NCBI RefSeq assembly: GCF_020054945.1 | Contig: NZ_JAIHAU010000007.1 | Span: 1 to 55,126 of the forward strand | Source: Mahella sp. | Lineage (GTDB): Bacteria; Bacillota; Clostridia; Mahellales; Mahellaceae | Length of the DNA stretch: 55,126 nt | Direction: 5' to 3' | Shown: piece by piece, positions 4,414 through 22,833 of the stretch | How positions within the stretch are numbered: the first letter of the stretch is position 1 | Layout: every line of letters begins with the position of its first letter | The notes under the pieces: model-generated | Database searches by the model: none | What the model was told of the DNA's origin: nothing | What the model saw: only the letters and a program-made list of their open reading frames with translations | Program-made: the position numbers and the translations under genes

Positions 4414-5580
4414 ATGGAATCAAATAGCAGTTTTCATCGACGGCCTTTGCGGCCGTGGATGATATATATACTGCTAATAGTGGCAGTAATCGCCGCATCC
4501 AGCTCCATACATGAGGTGCTGGCTAAAGATGTGACGGTTATGGTAGACGGTCGCAAAGCCTCAATTGCAACAAAGGAAGATACAGTAGAACAACTGCTGA
4601 AAGCATATGACATAACATTGGGGCCGGCTGATAAAGTAGTGCCTGCACCGGATACTACATTAAAAGACGGCATGGACATAAGCGTTATTCGTGCCACATT
4701 GGTAAAGGTCAACGATAACGGGCATATCAAAACGATCTATACCACAGCTTCTTCAGTAAACGATATGCTTAAAGAAGCCGGTATTTCGGTGAAACAAGAG
4801 GACAATATAGAACCTGCAGCAGATCAAAGCATATATCCTGGTTTATGTGTAAATATAACTAGAGCTGTGCCTGTTACCATATTGGCCGACGCTCAGGCTA
4901 AAAAAATATATACCACACGTACATCTGTAAGCCAGGTATTGGCCGATGCCGGCATAAAACTTGCGCAAAAAGATAAAGTAAGTCCCGGATTGGATACCGC
5001 AGTAAAAAGCGGTATCACGATAGAAATAGTCCGAGTAAACGAGACTTATGAAACCGTCGAAGAACCTATACCTTACCGGACTATAATTCGCGACAATCAT
5101 GACATGGCCAAAGGCGTACAAAAGGTGGTACAAGAAGGCCAAAACGGTCGCATACAACGAAAAATCCTAGTTGTATACGAGGATGGCAAGGAGGTTTCGC
5201 GCAAAGTAGCATCTGAAACTGTGGTAGCACAACCTAAAAATAAAATAGTAGAACGCGGTACTGTACAAAGCCTTGCGACCTCACGAGGCGCTATACGTTA
5301 CAGCAAAGTGCTGACCATGAACGCTTCGGCGTATACCGCCGGATATGATGGGGTAAACAACACAACAAGCACCGGACAAAGCGTACGGCGAGGAATAGCG
5401 GCAGTTGATCCTAGAGTAATACCTTTGGGTACCAAGCTGTATGTGGAGGGTTATGGTTTCGCAGTAGCAGCGGATGTAGGCGGAGCTATAAAAGGAAACA
5501 AAATTGATCTATATATGGAAACGTTATCCCAAGCCAGAGCTTTCGGCCGAAGAACGGTAAAAGTGTATATACTCAAATAA
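4414..5580 (+). CDS. yabE: YabE-like cell-wall protein (DUF348, G5 and 3D domains)
   Basis: This is a 388-residue protein with an N-terminal membrane segment (about residues 14-36) and then repeated ubiquitin-like DUF348 units (VTVMVDGRKASIATKEDTV, later VTILADAQAKKIYTTRTSV). A G5 domain follows (around residues 210-285, EEPIPYRTIIRDNHDMAKG). It ends in a 3D domain with MNASAYTAGYDG, IAAVDPRVIPLGTKLYVEGYG and a terminal DLYMETLSQARAFGRR. The 3D domain is the lytic-transglycosylase-like barrel found in MltA and Stationary-phase survival/Rpf-like proteins; its three conserved Asp residues appear in AAVDP, ADVGG and IDLYM. The protein probably remodels peptidoglycan at the surface. As in Bacillus it precedes ksgA, but the usual rnmV gene between them is absent. 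Confidence 0.88.
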   Translation: MESNSSFHRRPLRPWMIYILLIVAVIAASSSIHEVLAKDVTVMVDGRKASIATKEDTVEQLLKAYDITLGPADKVVPAPDTTLKDGMDISVIRATLVKVNDNGHIKTIYTTASSVNDMLKEAGISVKQEDNIEPAADQSIYPGLCVNITRAVPVTILADAQAKKIYTTRTSVSQVLADAGIKLAQKDKVSPGLDTAVKSGITIEIVRVNETYETVEEPIPYRTIIRDNHDMAKGVQKVVQEGQNGRIQRKILVVYEDGKEVSRKVASETVVAQPKNKIVERGTVQSLATSRGAIRYSKVLTMNASAYTAGYDGVNNTTSTGQSVRRGIAAVDPRVIPLGTKLYVEGYGFAVAADVGGAIKGNKIDLYMETLSQARAFGRRTVKVYILK

Positions 5581-5597
5581 GCCGTCGCATCTACACA

Positions 5598-5626
5598 GGG
5601 AGTACATGATGTACTCCCTTAATTTT
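5598..5626 (+). terminator. Terminator after the YabE-like gene
   Basis: A perfect 9-bp stem GGGAGTACA/TGTACTCCC with a 3-base loop is followed by TTAATTTT. Confidence 0.8.
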
Positions 5627-5676
5627 GTACCGACGCTTAATAATGCATAATAACATTAAAAGAGGGGAACCAGCCT

Positions 5677-6481
5677 GTGAATAAAACAAAGGATCTTTCG
5701 TCGCGGTCTGATGTGCAAAGATTTATAGACCAGCATAATTTCAAGCCTAACAGGACCTGGATTAGGGACTCTGACTATCAAACTCTCAGAGCAGGCGGCT
5801 CATGTTACTGCGGTGGAAGTGGACAAGCGTATCATACCATTACTAAAACAAACGCTACAGGATATAGACAATGTAAGCATAATAGAAGGTGATTTTTTAA
5901 ATCCGATGGTAGCTAAAAAAATAAAAGAATGTCTGGCAGGGAAATCCGCTGTAGCAGTGGCTAATCTGCCCTATTATATCACTACGCCGGCGCTTATGGG
6001 TATTATAGAAGACTATATCATGATCAAAAGGGCTGTGCTTATGATGCAGAAAGAGGTTGCATACAGGGTTGTAGCTCAGCCCGGCAGCCGATTAAGCGGA
6101 TCAGTAAAAGACTATGGGGTATTGTCGATATCGGTTCAATATTATATGGAGCCGCAAATATTGCTTGAGGTACCGCGGTCTGACTTCCTGCCATCTCCCG
6201 ACGTAGATTCCGCTGTGGTCAGGCTCGACAGGCGGGATAAGCCGGCTGTAGCTGTCCAAGATGAGCGCATGTTTTTTTCTCTTGTAAAGGCCGCCTTCGG
6301 TAAAAGGCGCAAGACCCTGTTTAACGCGCTGGTCGGAGGTCTTGGATATCCATTGGGTAAAGACGGGCTAAAGCGCGTTCTTGAACAGGTAGGCATAGAC
6401 GGTAATCGCCGAGCTGAAACTCTGTCGCTACAGGAATTCGCCGATATAGCAAACGAGCTATTCTATACCATAAACGGTTAA
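5677..6481 (+). pseudogene. ksgA: ksgA/rsmA 16S rRNA dimethyltransferase, broken by a deletion with frameshift
   Basis: Frame 1 starts at a GTG after AGAGGGGA and encodes 25 KsgA-like residues ending HNFKPN. From base 5750 onward the KsgA reading continues only in the next frame: GPGLGTLTIKLSEQAAHVTA, then EVDKR, the catalytic NLPYYITTPAL motif and an intact C-terminal domain to the stop. Compared with family members, about 30 residues between FKPN and GPGLG are missing. They include the conserved LGQNFL segment and the first half of SAM motif I. A loss of about 86-92 bases that is not a multiple of three explains both the gap and the frame change. The intact enzyme dimethylates two adenines near the 3' end of 16S rRNA; loss gives kasugamycin resistance. 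An assembly or sequencing error is an alternative to a real mutation. Confidence 0.85.
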
Positions 6482-6492
6482 TATTCTTTACA

Positions 6493-6783
6493 TCATCTCA
6501 TATTCCGCTTGTGAATGCGCACAGCTCGATCTACCGCCCAAAATATTATCACCAATACGGCGGCTCCTACAACGCCGGCTATAATGGTAGATGCCGCTCC
6601 ATTCCCCGCGATAGGTATTGTATAATCCGGCATAAGCGATATGCCTGCGTTCCTTTCAAGCGATGTAAAACCGAGATCCTCGGCCACCCTTTCCAGGCCA
6701 TCCGGAAACGATGAGGCAAACGGTGTTAAAGCTAACAGCATGGCTGCCAACAGCCATGGCCATAGTTTCTTTAATTTGTTCAT
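6493..6783 (-). CDS. PDGLE-domain protein (CbiN-like partner of CbiM)
   Basis: This 96-residue protein has two membrane segments (residues about 8-26 and 64-84) flanking an external loop that contains PDGLERVAEDLGF, the signature of the PDGLE family. Such proteins replace or follow CbiN in cobalt/nickel ECF transporters and assist the CbiM substrate-capture subunit. Its start overlaps the end of cbiM in an ATGA. The usual CbiQ and CbiO (ATPase) genes do not follow: the next gene is the convergent ksgA remnant 11 bases away. Confidence 0.8.
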   Translation of the reverse strand: MNKLKKLWPWLLAAMLLALTPFASSFPDGLERVAEDLGFTSLERNAGISLMPDYTIPIAGNGAASTIIAGVVGAAVLVIIFWAVDRAVRIHKRNMR

Positions 6784-9783: not shown

Positions 9784-9787
9784 CCCC
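9757..9787 (-). terminator. Terminator of the P-type ATPase gene overlapping both gene ends
   Basis: GGGGTTATA pairs with TATAACCCC across a 7-base loop. On the minus strand it is followed by CTTTTTTAT, so it terminates the ATPase transcript. The stem contains the stop codon of the AraC gene and touches that of the ATPase gene. Confidence 0.75.
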
Positions 9788-11889
9788 TATCTTGCTGCCC
9801 GCATGGAATTGAGCACCGCTATAACAGCTACGCCCACATCGGCAAACACCGCGGCCCACATCGAAGCCATGCCCGCAGCGGCCAATACCAGTACTACTGC
9901 TTTTATGCCTAAAGCCAATACTATATTTTGCTGTACTATGTGTTGGGTATGACGAGCTATATCGATAGCCTCCGGTATACGCGATACCTCATCATTCATC
10001 AATACCACATCGGCCGCCTCTATAGCGGCGTCAGAGCCAAGATCCCCCATAGCAACGCCTATATCGGCTCTGGCCAGTACCGGGGCATCGTTTATGCCGT
10101 CGCCCACAAATGCGAGTTTCTGTCCGGCAGTAACATCTTTATCTTTTTGCAGCTGTTCTAATTTTTCTACCTTTTGATCCGGCAGCAATTCGGCAAAGTA
10201 TCCGTCCAGTCCCAATCGTTGCGCGACCGCTCTGGCGATAGGCTCTCGGTCGCCGGTCAACATCACAGTTCTTATTCCCATATTCTGAAGTTGCCTTACG
10301 GTCTTGGCAGCATCCTCCTTTATCTCGTCAGCTATTACCAAATAGCCGGCATATGTGCCATTTACGGCAACATACACTATGGTGCCCATTTCATTTATAT
10401 CAGGATATTTTATATCGTATTTATCCATAAGCCCAGCATTACCGGTCAATATTTCGCGATCACCTAATACAGCCCTGACGCCTTGACCGGCTATTTCTTC
10501 ATAGACCTTTATATCCAGGCCTTCCGGCGATTGGCCATATGCTTCTATTATGGATTTGGCTATGGGATGATTGGAACGGCTCTCAGCTGCCGCCGCTATC
10601 ATCAGCAGCTCATCCCTGTCCATACCATCAGCCGGTTCGATCTTCGTCACCTTGAAGGTGCCTTTGGTCAGCGTCCCCGTTTTGTCGAATACGACGGCGC
10701 CCACCTGATTCAATGCCTCGAGGTAGTTGCCGCCTTTGATCAATATGCCATGCCGCGAGGCAGCGCCTATTCCGGCAAAGAAACCCAGCGGTATGGACAA
10801 AACCAGCGCGCATGGGCAGGATACAACCAAAAACACCAGTGCCCTATATACCCAATCGGCAAATATAGCCTGCGGGATAACCAGCGGCGGGATGACGGCT
10901 ATGGCCAATGCCGCAAACACCACTATCGGCGTATAATAGCGCGCAAAACGCGTGATGAATTTTTCGGTGGGAGCCTTTCGGCTGCCGGCCTCTTCCACCA
11001 TCTTCAGCACCCTTGACAATGTCGACTGGTCAAAAGGCTTATTTGTTTCTACCTCTATCAGTCCATATGTGTTTATAAAACCGGCCAGCACATCGTCGCC
11101 GGTATTGACCGTCCTAGGCACCGATTCGCCTGTCAGTGCGGAGGTATCCACCATGGACTGACCTTGGCTTACCTTACCATCCAACGGTATCCTCTCTCCC
11201 ACTTTCACCACTATGGTATCGCCTATATTGACGCTACGGGCATCTACCCTTTCTATAACACCGTTATGCTTTAAGTTGGCATAATCCGGCCTTACATCTA
11301 CAAGCTGTTTTATAGAGCGCCTTGAACGGTCCACAGCCTTATTCTCAAAATACATGCCTATTTGATAAAACAGCATGACCGCTACGCCTTCGGCAAATTG
11401 TCCTATGGCAAAAGCGCCCAATGTGGCTATAGACATGAGCAGGCTCTCATCGAAAACCATACCCTTTAAGATATTTGTCGCAGCTCTGAACAAAACATCG
11501 CCGCCTGATATTATATAAGCGGCTCCGAACAATACAAACTTCAGCCATGCGATATCAGGGATTAAAAATGCCGCTGCATATACAATTCCGGCTATAATAA
11601 GACGGCGCGGAGAGATATCTTCTTCGTCCTCTTCATCGCTGTCCTCTTCGATATCGTTCAAATAACGCATATTAACCTGGGGCTCTATATCGTTCACAAC
11701 ATTCTGCACCCTCTTTATAATATGCTCTTTGTCATGCTCTTCCTCCATTTCGATGGAAAGACGCTGCGTGGCCAAATTTATCGACGCATCGCATACGCCG
11801 TCTATCCGCTTTATCCCGTTCTCCATTTTAGCAGCACAACTAGCACAGTTCAAGCCGTCCAGTACAAATTCCTCTCGCTGCTCTGGCAT
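9787..11889 (-). CDS. cadA: Heavy-metal P1B-type ATPase (Zn/Cd/Pb-type, CadA/ZntA-like)
   Basis: This 700-residue protein has an N-terminal HMA domain with LNCASCAAKME (about 13-23), a short acidic linker (EEDSDEEDEED), and about eight membrane segments. The translocation motif SCPCALVLSIP falls near residue 357 and the phosphorylated Asp in FDKTGTLT near residue 400. HPIAKSI (nucleotide-binding domain), MLTGD and VGDGINDAP follow. SCPC in membrane helix 6 plus CASC fits the P1B-2 group exporting Zn2+, Cd2+ or Pb2+. It would pump metal out of the cytosol. The start follows GGAG by eight bases; two upstream in-frame starts are too close to it. A palindromic sequence near the promoter may bind a metal sensor. 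Confidence 0.88.
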   Translation of the reverse strand: MPEQREEFVLDGLNCASCAAKMENGIKRIDGVCDASINLATQRLSIEMEEEHDKEHIIKRVQNVVNDIEPQVNMRYLNDIEEDSDEEDEEDISPRRLIIAGIVYAAAFLIPDIAWLKFVLFGAAYIISGGDVLFRAATNILKGMVFDESLLMSIATLGAFAIGQFAEGVAVMLFYQIGMYFENKAVDRSRRSIKQLVDVRPDYANLKHNGVIERVDARSVNIGDTIVVKVGERIPLDGKVSQGQSMVDTSALTGESVPRTVNTGDDVLAGFINTYGLIEVETNKPFDQSTLSRVLKMVEEAGSRKAPTEKFITRFARYYTPIVVFAALAIAVIPPLVIPQAIFADWVYRALVFLVVSCPCALVLSIPLGFFAGIGAASRHGILIKGGNYLEALNQVGAVVFDKTGTLTKGTFKVTKIEPADGMDRDELLMIAAAAESRSNHPIAKSIIEAYGQSPEGLDIKVYEEIAGQGVRAVLGDREILTGNAGLMDKYDIKYPDINEMGTIVYVAVNGTYAGYLVIADEIKEDAAKTVRQLQNMGIRTVMLTGDREPIARAVAQRLGLDGYFAELLPDQKVEKLEQLQKDKDVTAGQKLAFVGDGINDAPVLARADIGVAMGDLGSDAAIEAADVVLMNDEVSRIPEAIDIARHTQHIVQQNIVLALGIKAVVLVLAAAGMASMWAAVFADVGVAVIAVLNSMRAAR

Positions 11890-11913
11890 AAACATCACTC
11901 CAGTCGTATAAAT

Positions 11914-13767: not shown

Positions 13768-16491
13768 TCATTTCTGGCCTGTCGCCTGCTTGAGCACATC
13801 CTCGAGCTGTTTCAAATATTCACCGTAGGCGGCCCAGTCTCCGCGTTGCGATGCATCCTTAGCCTGCTGCAGCAGATCATTAGCCTGCCTTATGAGATCC
13901 TGCTGCTGTGGTGTACCGGGAGCCGCAGGCGCCGCAGGCTGCGCTTGTTGTTCTTCTTCTATACCAAATATGCGGTTTAAAGCGGCTTCAAGGTTATCCT
14001 CCATAACCAGCTTATTTTCATAGAACATTATAACCTTCTTGACCTCGGGCAGACTGTTCTCGGTGGCCGAGCGTATATAAAGCGGCTCCACATAAAGCAG
14101 CGAATTCTCTATCGGTATGACCAGCGTATTGCCTCGCACCACTGATGAGCCCTGCTGATTCCACAGCGTTAACTCCTTCGATATGTTGGTATCCTGATCA
14201 ATGGTATATTCGACCTGCATAGGCCCATATACCAGCTTGTCTTTTGGGAATCTGTATACGATAAGCTTACCGTAATCGTCGCCGTCCATGCGCGCAGCCA
14301 TCCACGCCGTCATGTTATCCTTCTTTACCGGCGTAAACGGCACCATTAGCACAAATTCCGCTTTATCCTCTCCCGGCAATTTCATTATTATATATTGCGA
14401 TTCAATCTCCTGTATTTCATTGCCATATTTTTCATTAGCTATATCCCATGCATCTTCGCCGCTGTAAAACACCTGTGGATCAGTCATATGATAACGCCTA
14501 TATATTTCAGCCTGTACATCGAATAGAAGTTGCGGATAACGCAGATTATCCTTAAGACCGGCCGGCATATCATCGGCATCTTTAAACAACTTCGGGAATA
14601 TTCCTTTATACACATCGGCTATGGGATCGGTCTCATCCACGATATAGAAATCGGTTTTGCCATTATATGCGTTTATAATTACTTTAACCGAATTGCGCAT
14701 ATAATTCACGCCCAAATTCATATTATCCGGCTCTGCATACGGATATCTGTCGCTTGTAGTATAAGCATCTATTATCCAATATAGCCTGCCATCGTCGCCT
14801 ATAATGATATACGGGTCATCGTCGTAGCGCAAAAACGGCGCTATCATCCTCACTCTATCAGCTATATCGCGATTTATCAGTATCCTGCTCTCAGCGTTTA
14901 TATCCGATGACAAAAGCAATCTGAAATCCCCTGTATACAGCGTAAACAGCAGCCGATTTGCAAATGACATAGCTATGCCGCTTTCTTCCTGATAGATTGT
15001 TTCCTTATTTTGTTCTCCCATGGGATAATCGAATTCCTTTTGCTTCGTCTTTACTATAACATATTGATCGGTAGATTCGCCGAAGTATATTTCCGGCCTC
15101 TTTATGTCGACGCCATCAGCGTTCTTAGGCGGTATATCCTTTATAACCAACTGCGGTTGTCCACTAGGCGTTACGGCATTCACAGGCGACATAACAACGC
15201 CATAACCGTGTGTATATCTAAGATGCTGATTTATCCACGTCTTAGCATTATCCGGAAGCTTATCGATATTTAGCTCCCTAGGTGATAAAAATACCTCGGT
15301 ATAACGGTTATCCAGCATATAACGATCTATATCTATATCGTTGAATTGATAATACAGCCTTATACCCTGCAATTGATTATATACCTCCAATGCCGGTCTA
15401 TAATCGTTAATCCGTATATTATCTATAGTATCCCTGTTTTCGTTTAGATCCTGAACCGTCAGAGTCTGATCCGCACTAAAATCCTTTTCTTCTATTTTAT
15501 CCAAACCATAAGCCATCTTTGTATACTTTATGTTGTTCTCTATATAAGGCTGTTCTTTCTTAAATTCATTGGCCGATACAATCAGACCTTGAACCACGCC
15601 TCCGACAACAGCCGAAGTTACAAGAAGCGCCAATATAGCCAGAGGAGCCGATGCAGCCCACCATATCTTTTGCCTTATAGCTCCTATAATAAAAACAAAC
15701 GCTCCCGCAACCGATACAATCATAAGTATTCTGTAAAACAGCAGGGTAACGTGAATATCGGTATATCCCGCTCCTACAACCTTGCCGCGCGTAGAATACA
15801 GAAGGTCAAAGGTTTTTAAGTAATAACCGAAAGCCAGCGTAAGAAAGAATATGAAACCGAGCCATGCTATACGCTCTATAGCCGCACGTACTATATCCTT
15901 GTTTGAAACAACCCTAATAACGTTATCCTTCTCGAACAAACGATAAAAGCGCATTTTATCCGACATATACATAAGAGCGTATGCCAGTATTGTAACTATC
16001 GCCAATATAACAGTAAAATTCAATATAAAGCTATAAAGGCTATGTAAAAAAGGTAAACGGAACATATAAAGGCTTAGGTCATGCCCAAAAATCGGATCTT
16101 TTATGCCAAAATCGGATGAATTGATAAACGTGAGCCATTGGGACCATATACCCGAGGATTCGGATAAAGCCACTGTAATAGATATGAACAATAAAGCTAT
16201 GATTATAACAGTATTCAACAAATGAGATTGCCGTTTGGTTAAATCGGCCGCCATATAACGTGCGTAATCGCGCTTAATCATATTGCTATATGCATACAAT
16301 ACAGCAAATACTGCTATAAAAACGGGAATAGCTATTTGTGCCTGCGTTATAAAGCGGGTCATGAATACCGAAAGGTAACCTATGCTGTCGAGCCATTGGT
16401 AGTCCACAAAAAATCCCGTCAAAGCCAGCAATACTATAATAACGGCTATTATTATCGTTATAAGCCATCCTATCCATCGTTTCAGCGTCAT
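13768..16491 (-). CDS. UPF0182 (COG1615) large membrane protein
   Basis: This is a 907-residue protein of the UPF0182 family. The N-terminal third holds about seven transmembrane helices (first at about residues 8-30). A long extracytoplasmic domain begins around residue 270 (NNIKYTKMAYGLDKI, TEVFLSPREL, YTHGYGVVMSPVNAV). The protein ends in a Gln/Ala/Pro-rich tail with EYLKQLEDVLKQ. The family is widespread in Actinobacteria, Cyanobacteria and Clostridia and has no established function. The first plausible start is the ATG of MTLKRWIGW. An upstream extension of the frame would translate a structured repeat and is not credible. This ATG directly follows the hairpin end of a mobile element and has no clear ribosome site, so expression may have been altered by the insertion. 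Confidence 0.85.
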   Translation of the reverse strand: MTLKRWIGWLITIIIAVIIVLLALTGFFVDYQWLDSIGYLSVFMTRFITQAQIAIPVFIAVFAVLYAYSNMIKRDYARYMAADLTKRQSHLLNTVIIIALLFISITVALSESSGIWSQWLTFINSSDFGIKDPIFGHDLSLYMFRLPFLHSLYSFILNFTVILAIVTILAYALMYMSDKMRFYRLFEKDNVIRVVSNKDIVRAAIERIAWLGFIFFLTLAFGYYLKTFDLLYSTRGKVVGAGYTDIHVTLLFYRILMIVSVAGAFVFIIGAIRQKIWWAASAPLAILALLVTSAVVGGVVQGLIVSANEFKKEQPYIENNIKYTKMAYGLDKIEEKDFSADQTLTVQDLNENRDTIDNIRINDYRPALEVYNQLQGIRLYYQFNDIDIDRYMLDNRYTEVFLSPRELNIDKLPDNAKTWINQHLRYTHGYGVVMSPVNAVTPSGQPQLVIKDIPPKNADGVDIKRPEIYFGESTDQYVIVKTKQKEFDYPMGEQNKETIYQEESGIAMSFANRLLFTLYTGDFRLLLSSDINAESRILINRDIADRVRMIAPFLRYDDDPYIIIGDDGRLYWIIDAYTTSDRYPYAEPDNMNLGVNYMRNSVKVIINAYNGKTDFYIVDETDPIADVYKGIFPKLFKDADDMPAGLKDNLRYPQLLFDVQAEIYRRYHMTDPQVFYSGEDAWDIANEKYGNEIQEIESQYIIMKLPGEDKAEFVLMVPFTPVKKDNMTAWMAARMDGDDYGKLIVYRFPKDKLVYGPMQVEYTIDQDTNISKELTLWNQQGSSVVRGNTLVIPIENSLLYVEPLYIRSATENSLPEVKKVIMFYENKLVMEDNLEAALNRIFGIEEEQQAQPAAPAAPGTPQQQDLIRQANDLLQQAKDASQRGDWAAYGEYLKQLEDVLKQATGQK

Positions 16492-16499
16492 CAAAAATT

Positions 16500-16543
16500 G
16501 GCGCAGGAGACTCCATCCTCCGCATGGTGGAGAGGAATGCGCC
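16500..16543 (-). repeat. Right-end hairpin of the omega-RNA element
   Basis: On the minus strand GGCGCA...TGCGCC encloses a second pairing between CTCCA and TGGAG, followed by AATTTTTGATG. The hairpin sits immediately before the UPF0182 start codon. Its form matches the subterminal hairpins that TnpA recognises in IS200/IS605 elements, and the T-run could also make it a weak terminator. Confidence 0.55.
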
Positions 16544-16566
16544 TTTGCCTCCTTTCGTATTTTTAG

Positions 16567-16850
16567 GGGCGCTGTTGCGCCCCTTTCGCCCCGTAAGGGG
16601 CTTGTGACGCCCGGCATGCCGGGTCTCTCCTCGCCAATGTTGGCAGTCAGTACACCCGCATGGCACCGCCCTTACCCATCGGGCTTTTAACCATGCGGTT
16701 GTAGTGGTTAGGACTGGAGAAGCATCCTAACGTACGTTCTTTAACTCTCCTACCAACGTAGTGCTCGCGGCACTTAGGCTGGTCAATCAGGGCTCTTTCA
16801 AGCCCCCGCCTCCATAGGCGGTGGGTTATTGACCCCTTCATCATACCACA
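16567..16850 (-). ncRNA. Multi-hairpin structured RNA, HEARO/omega-RNA-like
   Basis: On the minus strand the order is as follows. GGTCAAT...ATTGACC closes a stem around CCGCC/GGCGG and GGGCT/AGCCC hairpins. Next come GTGC-CGCGA-GCAC, then GTTAGGA...TCCTAAC, then CCGCATGG...CCATGCGG. The palindrome CCCGGCATGCCGGG, GCCCC-TTAC-GGGGC and GGGGCGC/GCGCCCC follow. The closing GGTCA/TTGACC stem followed by a GTTAGGAT hairpin resembles HEARO (IscB omega) RNAs, whose guide lies at the 5' end. The guide would then be the genomic sequence just upstream (about 16850-16870). Family assignment is from memory of the fold. Confidence 0.5.
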
Positions 16851-16888: not shown

Positions 16889-17857
16889 TTAATATCTACG
16901 CTCCACCGATTCATCCAGTATAGCCAACATTATGCGCTTGTACTCATTATCCGGTAGCGGTCTTAAATCTTCTGCCGCTTTATCGGCAAAATTTTGAGCG
17001 GTCGCACGAGCCCTCTCTATCCCTCCTGATGCTTTGACCATAGCCTTAACCGTTTCCACATCGTGAGTATCATACCCGCCTTTGCTCAGCACGTTCAGCA
17101 AAGGCATACGATAATCGGTATCCAGCGCATATATCAACGGCAGGGTATATACGCCATCTTCGAAATCAGCGCCTGCAGGCTTGCCCAATTCCTCCTGCCG
17201 GCCTTCAAAATCCAATATATCATCTATGATTTGAAACACCATGCCGAAATCCGTACCGAAATTTTTCAAGGCATTATATACGGTTTTTGAGCAATTTGCC
17301 CTTTTTGCGCCTATGACACAGCTCAGAGCAAACAGATCGGCGGTTTTATGCCTTATGCGCCTTAGGTAGGAGCGTACCGATACCGTCGTATTGTAGCGCT
17401 GTTGGTATTGATCGACTTCTCCTTCGCAGATCCGCTTTACAACCCTTGATACCTCATAAAGGTCGTCAAATGACACCTCTTTGCTGAGCAATGAAAAGAC
17501 TGTGCTGAATAAAAAGTCACCGGTAAAAACGGCCACATTCTTGCCCCAACGCGATTGCACCGTCGGCTCGCCGCGCCGTATAGACGCATCATCTATTATG
17601 TCGTCATGTACCAGCGTGGCCATGTGAAGGATTTCTATCGCTGCGGCCAGATTAATTATCTCATCGCGTTTATAATCGCCAAAGCGCGACGATAATATCA
17701 CCATAAGTGGCCTTAATCGTTTGCCTCCCGATCCGGCCAATTGATTGATAACATCAGAGAGCAAACGTTGATGCGTCTTAAGCGCTCGCTTTATATAATT
17801 ATCGACAGCACCCATATCTTGCTTAATATCATCGGTATAAAATTCAAACGCAGACAT
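16889..17857 (-). CDS. Polyprenyl synthetase (DmkB/HepT-like) of the electron-transfer locus
   Basis: This 322-residue trans-isoprenyl diphosphate synthase has the first Asp-rich motif in LVHDDIIDDA (about 82-91) and the second in QIIDDILDFEG (about 210-220), plus GGKRLRP near residue 44. It would elongate farnesyl diphosphate to the side chain of a quinone. Position at the end of an ApbE, NusG-II, Gx-transporter gene string is the same as dmkB in the Listeria flavin-based extracellular electron transfer locus, where it makes demethylmenaquinone side chains. It could equally serve general menaquinone or undecaprenyl synthesis. The start follows GGAGATAT. No UbiA prenyltransferase is in the window. 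Confidence 0.85.
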   Translation of the reverse strand: MSAFEFYTDDIKQDMGAVDNYIKRALKTHQRLLSDVINQLAGSGGKRLRPLMVILSSRFGDYKRDEIINLAAAIEILHMATLVHDDIIDDASIRRGEPTVQSRWGKNVAVFTGDFLFSTVFSLLSKEVSFDDLYEVSRVVKRICEGEVDQYQQRYNTTVSVRSYLRRIRHKTADLFALSCVIGAKRANCSKTVYNALKNFGTDFGMVFQIIDDILDFEGRQEELGKPAGADFEDGVYTLPLIYALDTDYRMPLLNVLSKGGYDTHDVETVKAMVKASGGIERARATAQNFADKAAEDLRPLPDNEYKRIMLAILDESVERRY

Positions 17858-17869
17858 AGCTATATCTCC

Positions 17870-18388
17870 TTATTTTATAAGCCACCTCATATGGCTTTTT
17901 ATATATCGTTCCAAAAATGATGCCACTAACCCTATAAAATAGCCGGCGATCACTCCGGTTATCAATAACGCCGGCAAATAAGCGAATATTCCGGCCGTGT
18001 TGGCAACTATACTAAATACCAGAAGCTGACCTATATTATGAAACACACCCCCCGCAATGCTTATACCGGCCAGACTAAAATATTTATAAAACCTTTTGTA
18101 CATAATGCTCATCACTACGGTGCTGAGCAGACCTCCGGCCAAGCTGTAGAAAAACACCACAAACCCGCCGCCGAATAGCGAGCCCAAAAACGTTCGCAGT
18201 ATGACCACTATAATAGCCTCTTTAAAGCCAAAAACCATTATAACTATTAAAGTAACGATATTGGCTAATCCCAGTTTTGCTCCGGGCGGCATAATACCCG
18301 AAAGCGGTATAAAGCTCTCAAATATATGCAACATAAGGGCTATGGACACCATTACACCCAGCAATACCATCTTATTAGTTATACGCAT
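17870..18388 (-). CDS. eetB: Gx transporter family protein (EetB-like)
   Basis: This 172-residue protein has five or six hydrophobic segments and the family pattern LSGIMPPGAKLGLANIVTL (about residues 29-47) and LGSLFGGGFVVFFYSLAGG (about 69-87). It belongs to the family once called heptaprenyl diphosphate synthase component I, an ECF S-component-like fold. In Listeria the homologue EetB, with EetA, is needed for flavin-based extracellular electron transfer. The gene lies 14 bases after eetA and 12 bases before the polyprenyl synthetase gene. The start after GGAG is preferred to an in-frame ATG 18 bases upstream, which would overlap eetA. Confidence 0.8.
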   Translation of the reverse strand: MRITNKMVLLGVMVSIALMLHIFESFIPLSGIMPPGAKLGLANIVTLIVIMVFGFKEAIIVVILRTFLGSLFGGGFVVFFYSLAGGLLSTVVMSIMYKRFYKYFSLAGISIAGGVFHNIGQLLVFSIVANTAGIFAYLPALLITGVIAGYFIGLVASFLERYIKSHMRWLIK

Positions 18389-18402
18389 AGAATCTCCAGT
18401 CA

Positions 18403-18786
18403 TCAATAAGCCACGCTATCCACACCGGCGGGCTGGCCCATAATCTGCACAGTCAGCTTATGCGGCAGGCATACTATAATCTCGCCAGGCTTATCTATCC
18501 ATCCCGTATTGACGCATATCCTATCAGTACAATCCGCATCTTTTACTCTGATACGACCGGCGCTCACTTCTATCGTATTATATCCTCCGCCGGCTATCTC
18601 TACAGTAAAAATATCATCCTCCTGCATACGCGACGCCGGTATTTCTCTGTAGATCTCATCACCTATTTTTATGACGGCCCCTGCAGCCTTTACGTCAGAT
18701 ATATTATCTCGATAGTACAATACCCCATAGCCGACCATTACGGCGACAGCTATAACGAGCAGCAGTATTCTATCGCCCTTCTTCAT
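18403..18786 (-). CDS. eetA: NusG domain II protein (EetA-like)
   Basis: This 127-residue protein has one N-terminal membrane anchor (about residues 7-25) followed by an extracytoplasmic NusG-domain-II fold. The pattern FTVEIAGGGYNTIEVSAGRIRVKDADCTDRICV, then LPHKLTVQI, is characteristic of the stand-alone family. A CxxxxC pair (DCTDRIC) is present. In Listeria the homologue EetA is required for extracellular electron transfer. Here it sits between the flavin transferase (17-base overlap with its 3' end) and EetB, the same company as in known FLEET loci. Its molecular role is unknown. Confidence 0.8.
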   Translation of the reverse strand: MKKGDRILLLVIAVAVMVGYGVLYYRDNISDVKAAGAVIKIGDEIYREIPASRMQEDDIFTVEIAGGGYNTIEVSAGRIRVKDADCTDRICVNTGWIDKPGEIIVCLPHKLTVQIMGQPAGVDSVAY

Positions 18787-19804
18787 ATATAAACTCCTCG
18801 TCGGTTATATTGATGTTATCCTTGAGGCCGCTGGACACAGTAATTTTTTTGTCGTTTGTTATCATGATACATTCCACATCAGACAGCTCCTCGACAAGTT
18901 CCATACCTTTTTCGGGGCCTAATAAAAATACGGTAGTTGAAAGGGCATCGGCATCTATGGATTTATCCGATATAATGCTGACGCTGGCCAACCCGTTATC
19001 CGCCGGATAACCGGTGGACGGATCCAAAATATGATGGTACCGCTTGCCATCTTTTATAAAGTAGCGTTCATATGTTCCCGACGTCACGACGGTCTTATCT
19101 GTTTCTTCGACCACCGCTACATAATTGCCGGTGGGCTTAAAAGGGTTCTGTATACCAACGCGCCATGGATTGCCGTCCGGCCTGGCACCCACCACTACAA
19201 CATTGCCTCCCAAGCTTATTATGCCGCTTTTGACACCATATTCCTTAAATATCCTTGCCGCCTCATCGCCTGCATATCCCTTTGCTATAGCCCCGAGGTC
19301 TATGGACATGTTTCTTTCCGGCAATCCTATAGTGCCCGACGACACGTCTATCTGTAGCTTTCTGTAATCTATAAGGGCTTTCGCGCCATCTATAGCTGTC
19401 TGAGACGGTACCTCCTCTTTCTTGCCTATGCCCCATAGATTTACCAATGGCCCTACCGTTATATCAAAGGCCCCATCCGACAATTGGCTGTAATGTTGAG
19501 CGGTCTGCACAACATACATGGTTTCATCGCTGACCTTTACAGGATTTTGTCCCGCGGATTTGTTTACTTTATACACATCTCCTGTTTCGGAGCTTACGCT
19601 CATCAGATCATCTATCTTTTTTATACGCCCCATAGCGGCGTCTATGGCTTTTTCGCCATTCGGGCCGTAAGCGGTGAGTTCCATCAATGTATCCATAAGG
19701 AATTCGGTTTCTACTGTTTTTTCGGGCTCCTTGCCGCATGCTGATATTATAGGCAGCAGGCTTATCATAATCAAACATAATAATACAAGCCTTTTATACT
19801 TCAA
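18770..19804 (-). CDS. fmnB: FAD:protein FMN transferase lipoprotein (ApbE/FmnB-like)
   Basis: This 344-residue protein begins with a lipoprotein signal (LLPIISACGKEPEK, Cys about residue 23). The ApbE fold follows: ETEFLMDTLMELTAYG, the metal/FAD-binding GAIAKGYAGDEA (about 173), ISLGGNVVVVG (about 196) and SSGTYERYFI-like TSGTYERYF (about 242) with HHILDPSTGYPA. ApbE enzymes attach FMN covalently to Thr/Ser of target proteins outside the membrane. As in Listeria (FmnB), it is next to eetA, eetB and near ndh2, so it probably flavinylates an extracellular electron-transfer protein. No PplA-like target is in the window. A TTG start is chosen because GAGGAG lies eight or nine bases before it and the longer frame has no ribosome site. 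Confidence 0.85.
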   Translation of the reverse strand: MKYKRLVLLCLIMISLLPIISACGKEPEKTVETEFLMDTLMELTAYGPNGEKAIDAAMGRIKKIDDLMSVSSETGDVYKVNKSAGQNPVKVSDETMYVVQTAQHYSQLSDGAFDITVGPLVNLWGIGKKEEVPSQTAIDGAKALIDYRKLQIDVSSGTIGLPERNMSIDLGAIAKGYAGDEAARIFKEYGVKSGIISLGGNVVVVGARPDGNPWRVGIQNPFKPTGNYVAVVEETDKTVVTSGTYERYFIKDGKRYHHILDPSTGYPADNGLASVSIISDKSIDADALSTTVFLLGPEKGMELVEELSDVECIMITNDKKITVSSGLKDNINITDEEFIYEEGR

Positions 19805-20112
19805 TCCTTTTGCTCCTCTAACAATTAAACTAATCAATAGTATAGCATAGTATTGTACAAAAATCGACAATAGCTTATTGGTTAATATTATATCAAATAT
19901 TCATCGATATTTCATCTGTTATATTGTGGGATATAATGATTCCATTGTTTGTTGCATTAAGCCAATATAATAACATTCTTCAGCAAAATATTGCTTGAAA
20001 AAAATATTATATATGATACAATATTAAAAGTATAGTATAATTATTGGATTAGTTATTGGATTGATTATTTAACAATCATGGTTAATATTTTAACGCAAAG
20101 GGGAGATGTTAT
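19805..20112. promoter_or_regulatory. Divergent control region of the electron-transfer locus
   Basis: This AT-rich gap of about 300 bases separates the fmnB operon from ndh2. On the plus strand TTGAAA (19995-20000) and TACAAT (20017-20022) are 16 bases apart, and another TATAAT lies at 20036. On the minus strand a TATACT box lies about 35-40 bases before the fmnB start but its -35 is unclear. No palindromic operator stood out. Nothing coding. Confidence 0.5.
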
Positions 20113-21915
20113 TTGGCACAGAAACGCATAGTGATACTCGGCGCCGGTTTTGGCGGTCTTACCGCAGCCAAAGCCATACACAAATATCTCAAAAACGATC
20201 AAGACGTCGATATTTTAATGGTAAACCAAAGCCCTTATCACGTATATCTTACCGAGCTGCATGAGGTAGCCGGAAGCAGGGTGTCGGAAGAAGGCATACT
20301 GGTACCGATAGAACACGTGCTCGAGCATACCAAGGTACGGTTCGCACAGGATACTATAAAAAAGGTAGATGTGGATAACCATAAGCTCATATCGGACCAA
20401 GCGGAATATCCCTTCGATTATCTCATAGTAGCTTGCGGCAGCCAACCTACGTATTTCGGCATCCCGGGCATGAAAGAAAATGCCTTAACGCTGTGGTCGC
20501 TCGATGATGCTAAAAAAATACATCAACATGTGCTGGATGTATTTGAACAGGCCGCTAAAGAAAAAGACCCTGCCAAGCGCAAGGAATTGCTAACCTTCGT
20601 GGTGGGTGGCGGCGGATTTACAGGCGTGGAAATGATGGGAGAGTTGCGTCAATGGACCGAAACGTTGTGCAAACAATACGGTATACCAAAGGAAGAGCGC
20701 ACCCTCATTATCGTTGAGGCATTGCCTAAGATACTGCCCAATCTGCCTGATTCACTGATCGAAAAGGCCAAAAATTACATGACTAAAAAAGGCATAAAGA
20801 TCATGACCGATTCGCCTATAACCGAGGTGGAACCCGGCGTAATACATCTGAAATCCGGAGAAGCTATAAAAGCGGGCACATTCATATGGACCGGCGGCGT
20901 GGAGGCTAAGGATTTTGTAAAAAACATCGGCCTTAAGACCGGTAAACGCGGCAGGATAGAAGTAAATAAATATATGCAATCGGTAGATGATCCTAATATA
21001 TATGTCATAGGCGATGACGCATACTTCGTTACCGAACACGGTGAGATGCCAGCTTTAGTGGAATCAGCCATGGAAAGCGCCGAGTGCGCGTGCTATAATA
21101 TAGCCGCCGATATACACGGCCAACCCAAGAAAGAATTTAAGCTGGAGCTGCGCGGCGTCATGGTATCCATAGGAAGTACTTATGCCGTAGCCAATGTCAT
21201 GAACATGAAAATGTCGGGCGTATTTGCTCTCCTGATGAAGCATCTTGTAAACCTGAATTTCTTATTCGGGGTAGGCGGCATAGAATCGATAGTAAAATAT
21301 ATAAAATACCATTTCTTCCAGAGCAACAGAGGCCGTCCTATGATCATAAAACATATGACGGTAAAATCCCAAACCTTCTGGTTATCGCTCATACGTTTCT
21401 TCCTAGGCCTTTTGTGGATAACCGAGGGCATAACCAAGGTACAGGACGGCTGGCTTTCAGGTTACGCCAAGATAGGCGACGTCGGCTCCGGTGCCAGTCT
21501 GCAGCTTGTCGGTCCGTCTACGCCAGGTTGGTACGCATGGATAGCTGAACATATAATATACCCTAATGCGATATTCTTCCAGTCGCTCATAGTGCTTACC
21601 GAGTTGGCATTGGGCCTTATGTTCATATTCGGTTTCCTAACATTCATAGGAGGCGTTATATCAGCCTTCATGAGCATAAACTTCATGTTATCGGCAAGCG
21701 CCAGCGCAGGGGCTGCTGTAACACCGTCATTGCTGAATCCGGGTAATCTCTGGATTTTGGTATTGTCCATTGCCATGCTGGGCGGTGCAGGACGAGCATT
21801 CGGACTGGATTATTACTTCATACCGTACTTGAAGGAATTGATACGTTATTACCAGCGCAATCACAGATTGACGCTGATCCCTTTGATAAAGCATGTATTG
21901 AAAGAAGACAAATAA
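20113..21915 (+). CDS. ndh2: Type II NADH dehydrogenase with membrane C-terminus (Ndh2 of FLEET type)
   Basis: This 600-residue flavoprotein has a dinucleotide-binding motif VILGAGFGGLTAAKAI at residues 6-21, a second one in FVVGGGGFTGVEMMGEL (about 160-176) and the FAD-site YVIGDDAYF (about 297). These are typical of NDH-2 enzymes, which oxidise NADH and reduce quinone at the inner face of the membrane without pumping protons. Unlike ordinary NDH-2 (about 400 residues) it continues with about 170 residues holding four hydrophobic helices in a DoxX-like pattern (FFLGLLWITEGITKV; LALGLMFIFGFLTFI). A membrane extension of this kind marks the Ndh2 of flavin-based extracellular electron transfer. 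It diverges from fmnB-eetA-eetB-dmkB. It has a TTG start with GGGGAG upstream. Confidence 0.88.
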   Translation: MAQKRIVILGAGFGGLTAAKAIHKYLKNDQDVDILMVNQSPYHVYLTELHEVAGSRVSEEGILVPIEHVLEHTKVRFAQDTIKKVDVDNHKLISDQAEYPFDYLIVACGSQPTYFGIPGMKENALTLWSLDDAKKIHQHVLDVFEQAAKEKDPAKRKELLTFVVGGGGFTGVEMMGELRQWTETLCKQYGIPKEERTLIIVEALPKILPNLPDSLIEKAKNYMTKKGIKIMTDSPITEVEPGVIHLKSGEAIKAGTFIWTGGVEAKDFVKNIGLKTGKRGRIEVNKYMQSVDDPNIYVIGDDAYFVTEHGEMPALVESAMESAECACYNIAADIHGQPKKEFKLELRGVMVSIGSTYAVANVMNMKMSGVFALLMKHLVNLNFLFGVGGIESIVKYIKYHFFQSNRGRPMIIKHMTVKSQTFWLSLIRFFLGLLWITEGITKVQDGWLSGYAKIGDVGSGASLQLVGPSTPGWYAWIAEHIIYPNAIFFQSLIVLTELALGLMFIFGFLTFIGGVISAFMSINFMLSASASAGAAVTPSLLNPGNLWILVLSIAMLGGAGRAFGLDYYFIPYLKELIRYYQRNHRLTLIPLIKHVLKEDK

Positions 21916-21957: not shown

Positions 21958-21981
21958 TTGAGTTACAGGAGGTTATATAAA

Positions 21982-22833
21982 ATGGAGAAACGTGTGCTCG
22001 GAAAAACAGGAGAAAAGCTCTCCATAGTTGGTTTCGGCGGAATAGTGGTATCAGGTATGGAACAGTCCAACGCCAATAACGTGGTAGCTGACGCCATAGA
22101 TAAAGGCGTCAATTATTTTGACGTGGCACCTACATATGGCGATGCGGAGGTAAAACTCGGATATGCTCTGGAAGGTAAACGCAATAACGTGTTTCTGGCT
22201 TGCAAGGCCGAAGAACGTACTAAAGATGGCGTGATGAAACAGCTCGAGCAATCATTGAAAAATCTGCGTACCGACCATTTTGATCTGTATCAGATGCATT
22301 CCATGACCACACAGGAGGATTTTGATACGGCCATAGGGCCTAATGGAGCTGTGGAAGCCCTTGTGGAAGCCAAACGTAAAGGTCTGACGCGTTATATAGG
22401 ATTTTCGGCTCATTCGGTGGAGATAGCCTTAAAGCTCATAGACGCTTTCGACTTCGATACCATATTGTTCCCTACCAATTGGGTCAATTTCTTCAATGCC
22501 AATTTCGGCCCGCAAGTGGTAGAGAAAGCCGCTCAAAAGGGTATGGGGTATCTGGCTATAAAGGCCATGGCCATGACCCCATTGGCTGAAAATGAGGCGC
22601 GTGCTTATCCAAATTGCTGGTATAAGCCGGTGGATGATCCTGAGCTGGCGGCACTGGCCTTGCGCTTTACATTATCCCAACCCGGTGTAACGGCGGCTAT
22701 ACCACCCGGAGATCCAAATTTATTTAAGCTCGCTTTAAGCATAGGCGAAAAACCTTTTGAGAAAATAACCGATGAAGAGATAGAGCTCTTAAAGCAACGG
22801 GCAAAGGGATTAAAATCCGTATTCCCGCAATAA
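21982..22833 (+). CDS. Aldo/keto reductase
   Basis: This 283-residue protein opens MEKRVLGKTGEKLSIVGFGG and has the family catalytic Asp and Tyr in YFDVAPTYGDAE (about residues 46-57). The catalytic Lys is in FLACKAEER and the His in LYQMHSMT. It should be an NAD(P)H-dependent reductase in the cytosol, substrate unknown; no C-terminal ferredoxin-type cysteines are present. The start is the ATG after AGGAGG; the in-frame GTG/ATG upstream would fall in the ndh2 terminator. It is a single gene between two terminators. Confidence 0.85.
   Translation: MEKRVLGKTGEKLSIVGFGGIVVSGMEQSNANNVVADAIDKGVNYFDVAPTYGDAEVKLGYALEGKRNNVFLACKAEERTKDGVMKQLEQSLKNLRTDHFDLYQMHSMTTQEDFDTAIGPNGAVEALVEAKRKGLTRYIGFSAHSVEIALKLIDAFDFDTILFPTNWVNFFNANFGPQVVEKAAQKGMGYLAIKAMAMTPLAENEARAYPNCWYKPVDDPELAALALRFTLSQPGVTAAIPPGDPNLFKLALSIGEKPFEKITDEEIELLKQRAKGLKSVFPQ

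Follow-up and report, generated by a model that had tools for sequence, protein, structure and literature searches.

The question raised by a 55,126-nucleotide stretch of DNA from Mahella sp. (the whole of which is here termed the window) is whether a compact group of genes at positions 16889-21915 encodes a system for flavin-based extracellular electron transfer (FLEET), as studied in Listeria, given that some components of the Listeria locus are not encoded nearby. The window is one contig (C36) of a 2.16 Mb genome, which is 86% complete. The available evidence is that the locus is probably a working clostridial FLEET system, in the broad sense of the term. The parts, their order, homology, selection and linkage are read directly from the sequences.

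Gene content and conservation of the locus

A preliminary description of the window had assigned five genes to the locus, all of which are present and encode proteins scoring far over the Pfam cut-offs in a profile search of the locus proteins. The genes and the region that divides them are as follows:

16889..17857, minus strand: long-chain polyprenyl diphosphate synthetase, DmkB-like (PF00348, 232 bits), in the same slot in the FLEET loci of relatives
17870..18406, minus strand: EetB, ECF-S-like membrane subunit, proposed FAD exporter (PF07456, 161 bits); in Listeria, EetB together with FmnA has been demonstrated to export FAD (PMC9973259)
18403..18786, minus strand: EetA, NusG domain II protein with one N-terminal membrane helix, 4-26 by hydropathy (PF07009, NusG_II, 106 bits)
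18770..19804, minus strand: ApbE/FmnB, FAD:protein FMN transferase lipoprotein (PF02424, 331 bits), in an open frame that reaches 19870
19805..20112, no strand: divergent apbE/ndh2 intergenic region, where both promoters are expected, conserved in two congeners
20113..21915, plus strand: Ndh2, type II NADH dehydrogenase with a C-terminal DoxD/DoxX-like membrane domain (PF07992, Pyr_redox_2, 150 bits)

The four minus-strand genes overlap or lie 12 bases apart and are thus read as one operon; ndh2 is separated from them by ~300 bases and is divergent, as the preliminary description had it. The likely start of ApbE is a TTG at 19804 with AGGAG upstream, which yields a lipoprotein with the lipobox ISAC. 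The closest solved relative of ApbE is 7esa (290 bits, versus 182 for the next), i.e. the structure of Listeria FmnB (PMC8906456). Among NCBIfam models the synthetase fits heptaprenyl synthase component II best, though at a score below the cut-off.

Comparison within the genus covered three genomes: the window genome (G000), G001 and that of the congeneric Mahella australiensis (G002, a single chromosome). The five-gene order is kept in both congeners, with 85-97% protein identity. The ratio of non-synonymous to synonymous substitution rates (dN/dS) between the window genome and M. australiensis is 0.035 for ndh2, 0.065 for eetB, 0.17 for apbE, 0.14 for eetA, 0.09 for the synthetase and 0.068 for pplA, the last encoding an unlinked lipoprotein discussed below. 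The conserved order, together with dN/dS values of 0.03-0.17, implies that the locus is not a chance assembly; purifying selection acts on all parts of the system.

Ndh2 as the diagnostic component

The window Ndh2, the only close NDH-2 in the genome, is homologous over its full length to that of Listeria floridensis (37% identity over 629 columns, including the membrane part). An AlphaFold2 model (mean predicted local distance difference test score 87) has the NDH-2 fold at residues 1-407 (4nwz: Z 53.6, root-mean-square deviation 1.7, 390 aligned), followed by helices at 423-444, 472-506, 510-531, 546-557 and 566-583, so placing the C-terminal membrane domain at about residues 423-583. The structure search was set aside as evidence on this membrane part, all the listed matches essentially covering residues 1-407. 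Against the DoxD profile the C-terminal stretch scores 21.5 bits, slightly below the cut-off of 22.7, and the Caldicoprobacter orthologue scores 36 bits, above it. An Ndh2 of 560-680 residues is encoded at 79 of 80 named homologous loci.

An operational definition of extracellular electron transfer in Gram-positive bacteria is an NADH dehydrogenase with a transmembrane helix encoded beside flavinylation genes (PMC8238504); this is what is found here, with a membrane-helix Ndh2 divergent from apbE. Phylogenies of the accessory proteins are less discriminating. The window ApbE groups with FLEET rows only, and the window EetB falls in a set of eight comprising five FLEET rows, two other rows and no Rnf row. 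In both trees, however, FLEET, Rnf and other rows interleave and FLEET does not form one clade, for which reason the trees were rejected as proof of FLEET identity, and Ndh2 alone is diagnostic, ApbE and EetB not. The earlier assignment to FLEET therefore stands on gene content, the full-length homology of Ndh2, the best match of ApbE to FmnB, and synteny in named relatives.

Two adjacent apbE-like genes were observed in two other FLEET loci (L057, in genome G057 at 4416-6775, and L116); at L057 the product of the second shares only about 29% identity with the ApbE of the window. Metagenome-assembled genomes (MAGs) of Spirochaetota (L154, L166, L171, L172, L175 and L187) encode a FLEET-type ndh2 with membrane domain and a polyprenyl synthetase, sometimes with apbE or pplA.

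Comparison with FLEET loci of relatives

Among the 80 named loci, which were collected by an Ndh2 profile, the synthetase is encoded near ndh2 in 64, ApbE in 43, EetA and EetB in 41 each, and a PplA-like protein in 25. The carriers include Listeria, Fervidicola ferrireducens (L121) and Orenia metallireducens (L140); the latter two are species named for metal reduction. In M. australiensis the arrangement is the same gene for gene, sequence divergence being the sole difference. M. australiensis is also listed among Firmicutes with homologues of flavin-based extracellular electron transfer proteins in a review (PMC9556394, citing Light et al.). Thus, the system is already known for the genus, to which the present locus adds one more genome.

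Beyond the genus, Caldicoprobacter (L053, L112, L113) has the same genes in the same order, with the same divergence from ndh2 and an Ndh2 about 53% identical to that of the window. It differs in having a pplA between ndh2 and apbE, a slot that is empty in the window; the site of this PplA is a normal TGAT. The Listeria locus, represented by L. floridensis (L189) and L. aquatica (L185), likewise has a membrane-tailed Ndh2, EetA, EetB, a polyprenyl synthetase and ApbE/FmnB in a divergent arrangement, but the arms are composed differently: ndh2-eetA-eetB-dmkB and pplA-fmnB-dmkA-fmnA in Listeria, apbE-eetA-eetB-polyprenyl synthetase and ndh2 in the window. Unlike Listeria, the window genome has pplA and the prenyltransferase unlinked, has no detected fmnA, and encodes a PplA with one FMN domain rather than two.

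Components encoded elsewhere in the genome

The preliminary description correctly noted that a prenyltransferase, FmnA and PplA are lacking in the window near the locus, and proposed that the system is either reduced or completed elsewhere. Completion elsewhere holds for the prenyltransferase and probably for PplA, whereas no dedicated FmnA was found. The relevant features are:

contig C1, 626-1555 (L050): MenA-like UbiA prenyltransferase, conserved in both congeners
contig C49, 9306-9731 (L015), minus strand: PplA-like lipoprotein of 141 residues, lipobox LAAC, with one FMN domain

The finding of the first of these on contig C1 answers the call for a ubiA-type prenyltransferase, and by its sequence it would fill the DmkA-type role. 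In G024 (57% identity), G050 (51%) and F. ferrireducens (61%) an orthologue is encoded next to ndh2. Among 31 genomes, UbiA scores over the cut-off in 11 of the 12 that carry ndh2, as against 2 of the 19 others, a co-occurrence with P about 1e-5, or 5e-5 with the genus counted once.

The window genome encodes two FMN_bind proteins, one being RnfG and the other the PplA-like lipoprotein. The latter matches PF04205 at 28 bits and, weakly, NF041941 (46.7 bits, below the cut-off of 325), and is kept in both congeners (L016, 8488-8913; L018, 9319-9756). A putative FMN acceptor of the kind sought is thus encoded elsewhere in the genome, but its ApbE target motif is off consensus: the predicted flavinylation sites in the three genus members read SKAT, SKAT and SNAT (D-x-x-S-K-A-T or D-x-x-S-N-A-T), not SGAT. 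Glycine is present (GAT) in those PplA domains from other FLEET loci that have a readable motif. The RnfD site of the window genome, TTAT, also has no glycine, which suggests that this ApbE may be somewhat tolerant of off-consensus sites.

With respect to FmnA, one canonical EcfT is encoded at C2 and a second, weak copy at C41, and the search for a dedicated ECF-type FmnA yielded none. In a published survey an ECF-T gene was co-localized with eetB in only 291 of 4,214 genomes (PMC9973259), from which it follows that FmnA is not defining for clostridial members; on the same grounds EetB probably relies on the general-purpose EcfT and EcfA.

Flavinylation probably shared with Rnf

A complete rnfCDGEAB operon is present on contig C53 (L014), with the sites SGAT in RnfG and TTAT in RnfD; it is not adjacent to apbE/eetAB, which are on C36. 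Since the genome contains a single ApbE and a single EetB, the window operon most likely also serves Rnf, flavinylating RnfG and RnfD. The interleaving of the EetB and ApbE trees is consistent with machinery that is shared by FLEET and Rnf. Clostridial Rnf-associated ApbE-EetAB sets (L235, L237, L238; PMC9973259) resemble the window in combining genes for FAD export and flavinylation, but they lie beside rnf and are without ndh2, the rnf of the window genome being on another contig.

Quinone supply

No match to MenB (TIGR01929) or MqnA/MqnD (PF02621) was found in G000, G001 or the complete G002. Across 99 relatives no MenB scored over the cut-off and PF02621 gave weak matches only, the best at 48.5 bits. 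With no genes detected for de novo naphthoquinone synthesis, the cell probably obtains the head group of its quinone from the surroundings. The lack of any quinone pathway had been put forward as an observation that would speak against FLEET; what is found is mixed, in that the de novo genes MenB and MqnA/D were not detected but genes for late prenylation and decarboxylation are present, including those of one further operon:

contig C53, 3464-8764 (L049), minus strand: six genes, ubiD-ubiA-ubiX-substrate-binding lipoprotein-ATPase-permease, most of which overlap or nearly so

The UbiD of this operon matches TIGR03701 (menaquinone-biosynthesis decarboxylase) at 664 bits, over the cut-off of 496, which suggested a futalosine pathway in the window genome; this was rejected on the absence of PF02621. 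The UbiA scores 309 bits against the MqnP model (cut-off 430). The transporter is SsuABC-like, with a binding protein of the NMT1/SsuA-like group, the varied ligands of which mean that the transported substrate is not readable from sequence. The operon is also present in M. australiensis (L069), the third genome of the genus being without this UbiD family.

At least four other lineages have homologues of the operon within a FLEET locus or adjacent to one. The whole six-gene operon is immediately upstream of ndh2 in F. ferrireducens (L121; 59-77% identity), in which no PF02621 match was found (the named genomes were searched for PF02621 only). Two MAGs, one of Vallitalea (L142) and one of Clostridiales (L190), have ubiD-ubiA-ubiX and transporter genes after eetB or the synthetase; in G081 (L239) all six genes come after apbE; ubiD-ubiA follow the synthetase in G056 and G082; and transporter genes are beside ndh2 or apbE in L115 and L114. 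TIGR03701 scores over the cut-off in 6 of 99 genomes, all six of which carry a FLEET-type ndh2 (P about 1e-4, a value that overstates independence as the six span four families only).

It may be that FLEET clostridia without ring synthesis take up a soluble precursor and complete the quinone from it, with the C53 operon as a candidate module, a proposal that we make tentatively and regard as possible rather than probable. Precedent for a precursor-supplied FLEET system comes from Lactiplantibacillus plantarum, which runs FLEET on exogenous 1,4-dihydroxy-2-naphthoic acid (DHNA) (PMC9888254), and importers of soluble menaquinone precursors were argued in a 2016 analysis to exist and to be awaiting annotation (PMC4746308). 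The C53 transporter may instead carry riboflavin, a precursor of thiamine or a sulfonate.

Proposed mechanism and alternative explanations

We infer the following route of electron transfer, its terminal acceptor, and the supporting steps of FAD export, flavinylation and precursor import. Ndh2 would oxidize cytosolic NADH and hand electrons to a prenylated membrane quinone, the tail of which would be built by the polyprenyl synthetase and the head group of which would come from outside the cell. The membrane domain of Ndh2, perhaps together with EetA, would relay the electrons to PplA, an outward-facing lipoprotein that would carry a flavin, and they would go on to free flavins, ferric iron or some other acceptor. 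FAD would be exported by EetB working with shared ECF subunits, and from it ApbE/FmnB may attach FMN to the outside proteins RnfG, RnfD and PplA, while PplA and the prenyltransferase would be supplied from elsewhere in the genome. Metal or flavin reduction by this organism is accordingly a prediction from its genes.

Several observations weigh against such a system. No dedicated FmnA-type ECF-T is encoded beside eetB at the locus, the PplA has a single FMN domain and SKAT for SGAT, and in a Klebsiella protein a Gly-to-Ala change at the site lowers flavinylation to about 50% (PMC12052999). The mixed EetB and ApbE trees, the non-detection of MenB and MqnA/D, and the incompleteness of the genome also count on this side, as does the lack of a known phenotype, no report of extracellular ferric or electrode reduction in Mahella having been found in the literature.

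Three other explanations were weighed. The off-consensus PplA site, the full rnf operon with its SGAT and TTAT sites, the single ApbE and EetB, and the co-localization of eetB with Rnf in 572 clostridial genomes (PMC9973259) would fit an operon that mainly flavinylates Rnf, its adjacency to ndh2 being historical and Ndh2 merely recycling NADH. We consider this unlikely: in many families ndh2 and the operon diverge while rnf is located elsewhere, the window EetB and ApbE do not group with Rnf rows, and no role in Rnf is known for a polyprenyl synthetase; moreover, the Rnf and FLEET roles are mutually compatible. A similarly low probability is given to the proposal that electrons from Ndh2 pass via quinone to a soluble small molecule or an unrecognized reductase, not to metals, so recycling NAD+ in a fermenter through a free quinone or flavin shuttle. 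In its favour, L. plantarum, which depends on DHNA from outside, employs it as a shuttle with Ndh2 and can dispense with dmkA and dmkB (PMC9888254); no genes for de novo quinone synthesis were detected in the genus genomes; and sulfur, sulfate, sulfite, nitrate and nitrite are not used by M. australiensis (PMC3156404). However, the PplA-like lipoprotein is under purifying selection (dN/dS 0.07) and the prenyltransferases are also kept.

That the system is decaying in the genus, with PplA out of the operon and the flavinylation glycine lost, appears very improbable. The SKAT/SKAT/SNAT sites, versus GAT elsewhere, and the unlinked pplA would be in keeping with decay, but every frame is intact, the low dN/dS values of ndh2, pplA and eetB are not those of decaying genes, and RnfD in the same genome also has no glycine. 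A working FLEET system with dispersed parts remains the preferred explanation.

Neighbouring genes and regulation

The gene 3' of ndh2 is:

21958..22833, plus strand: aldo/keto reductase (PF00248, 104 bits)

It is kept in M. australiensis (L051), but in other families no such gene was seen next to ndh2; it is probably a passenger. On the other side, a large UPF0182 membrane protein (13768-16617) adjoins the FLEET operon, an adjacency kept in both congeners. A heavy-metal P-type ATPase is encoded about 5 kb from the locus (9787-11898); one 57% identical to it adjoins ndh2 in Caldicoprobacter, with more distant ones in the Thermosediminibacter/Fervidicola group. As a constant FLEET neighbour it was rejected, occurring in only 4 of 49 loci with full flanks, in two lineages. 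Rex-type redox control was likewise not upheld for the window, where the palindrome upstream of ndh2 is not significant (p 0.17); over 97 loci, 13 have a Rex-like palindrome there at p<=0.05, a slight excess over the about 5 expected.

Implications

The locus shows that the genes of a FLEET system can be dispersed through a genome, with the result that such systems are undercounted when contiguous operons are searched for. The C53 operon offers a concrete, testable answer to the question of how FLEET bacteria that have quinone-tail genes but are without ring synthesis are supplied with quinone, and by which transporter the precursor enters; if the proposal is true, it would be the first candidate importer for the exchange of quinone precursors postulated earlier (PMC4746308).

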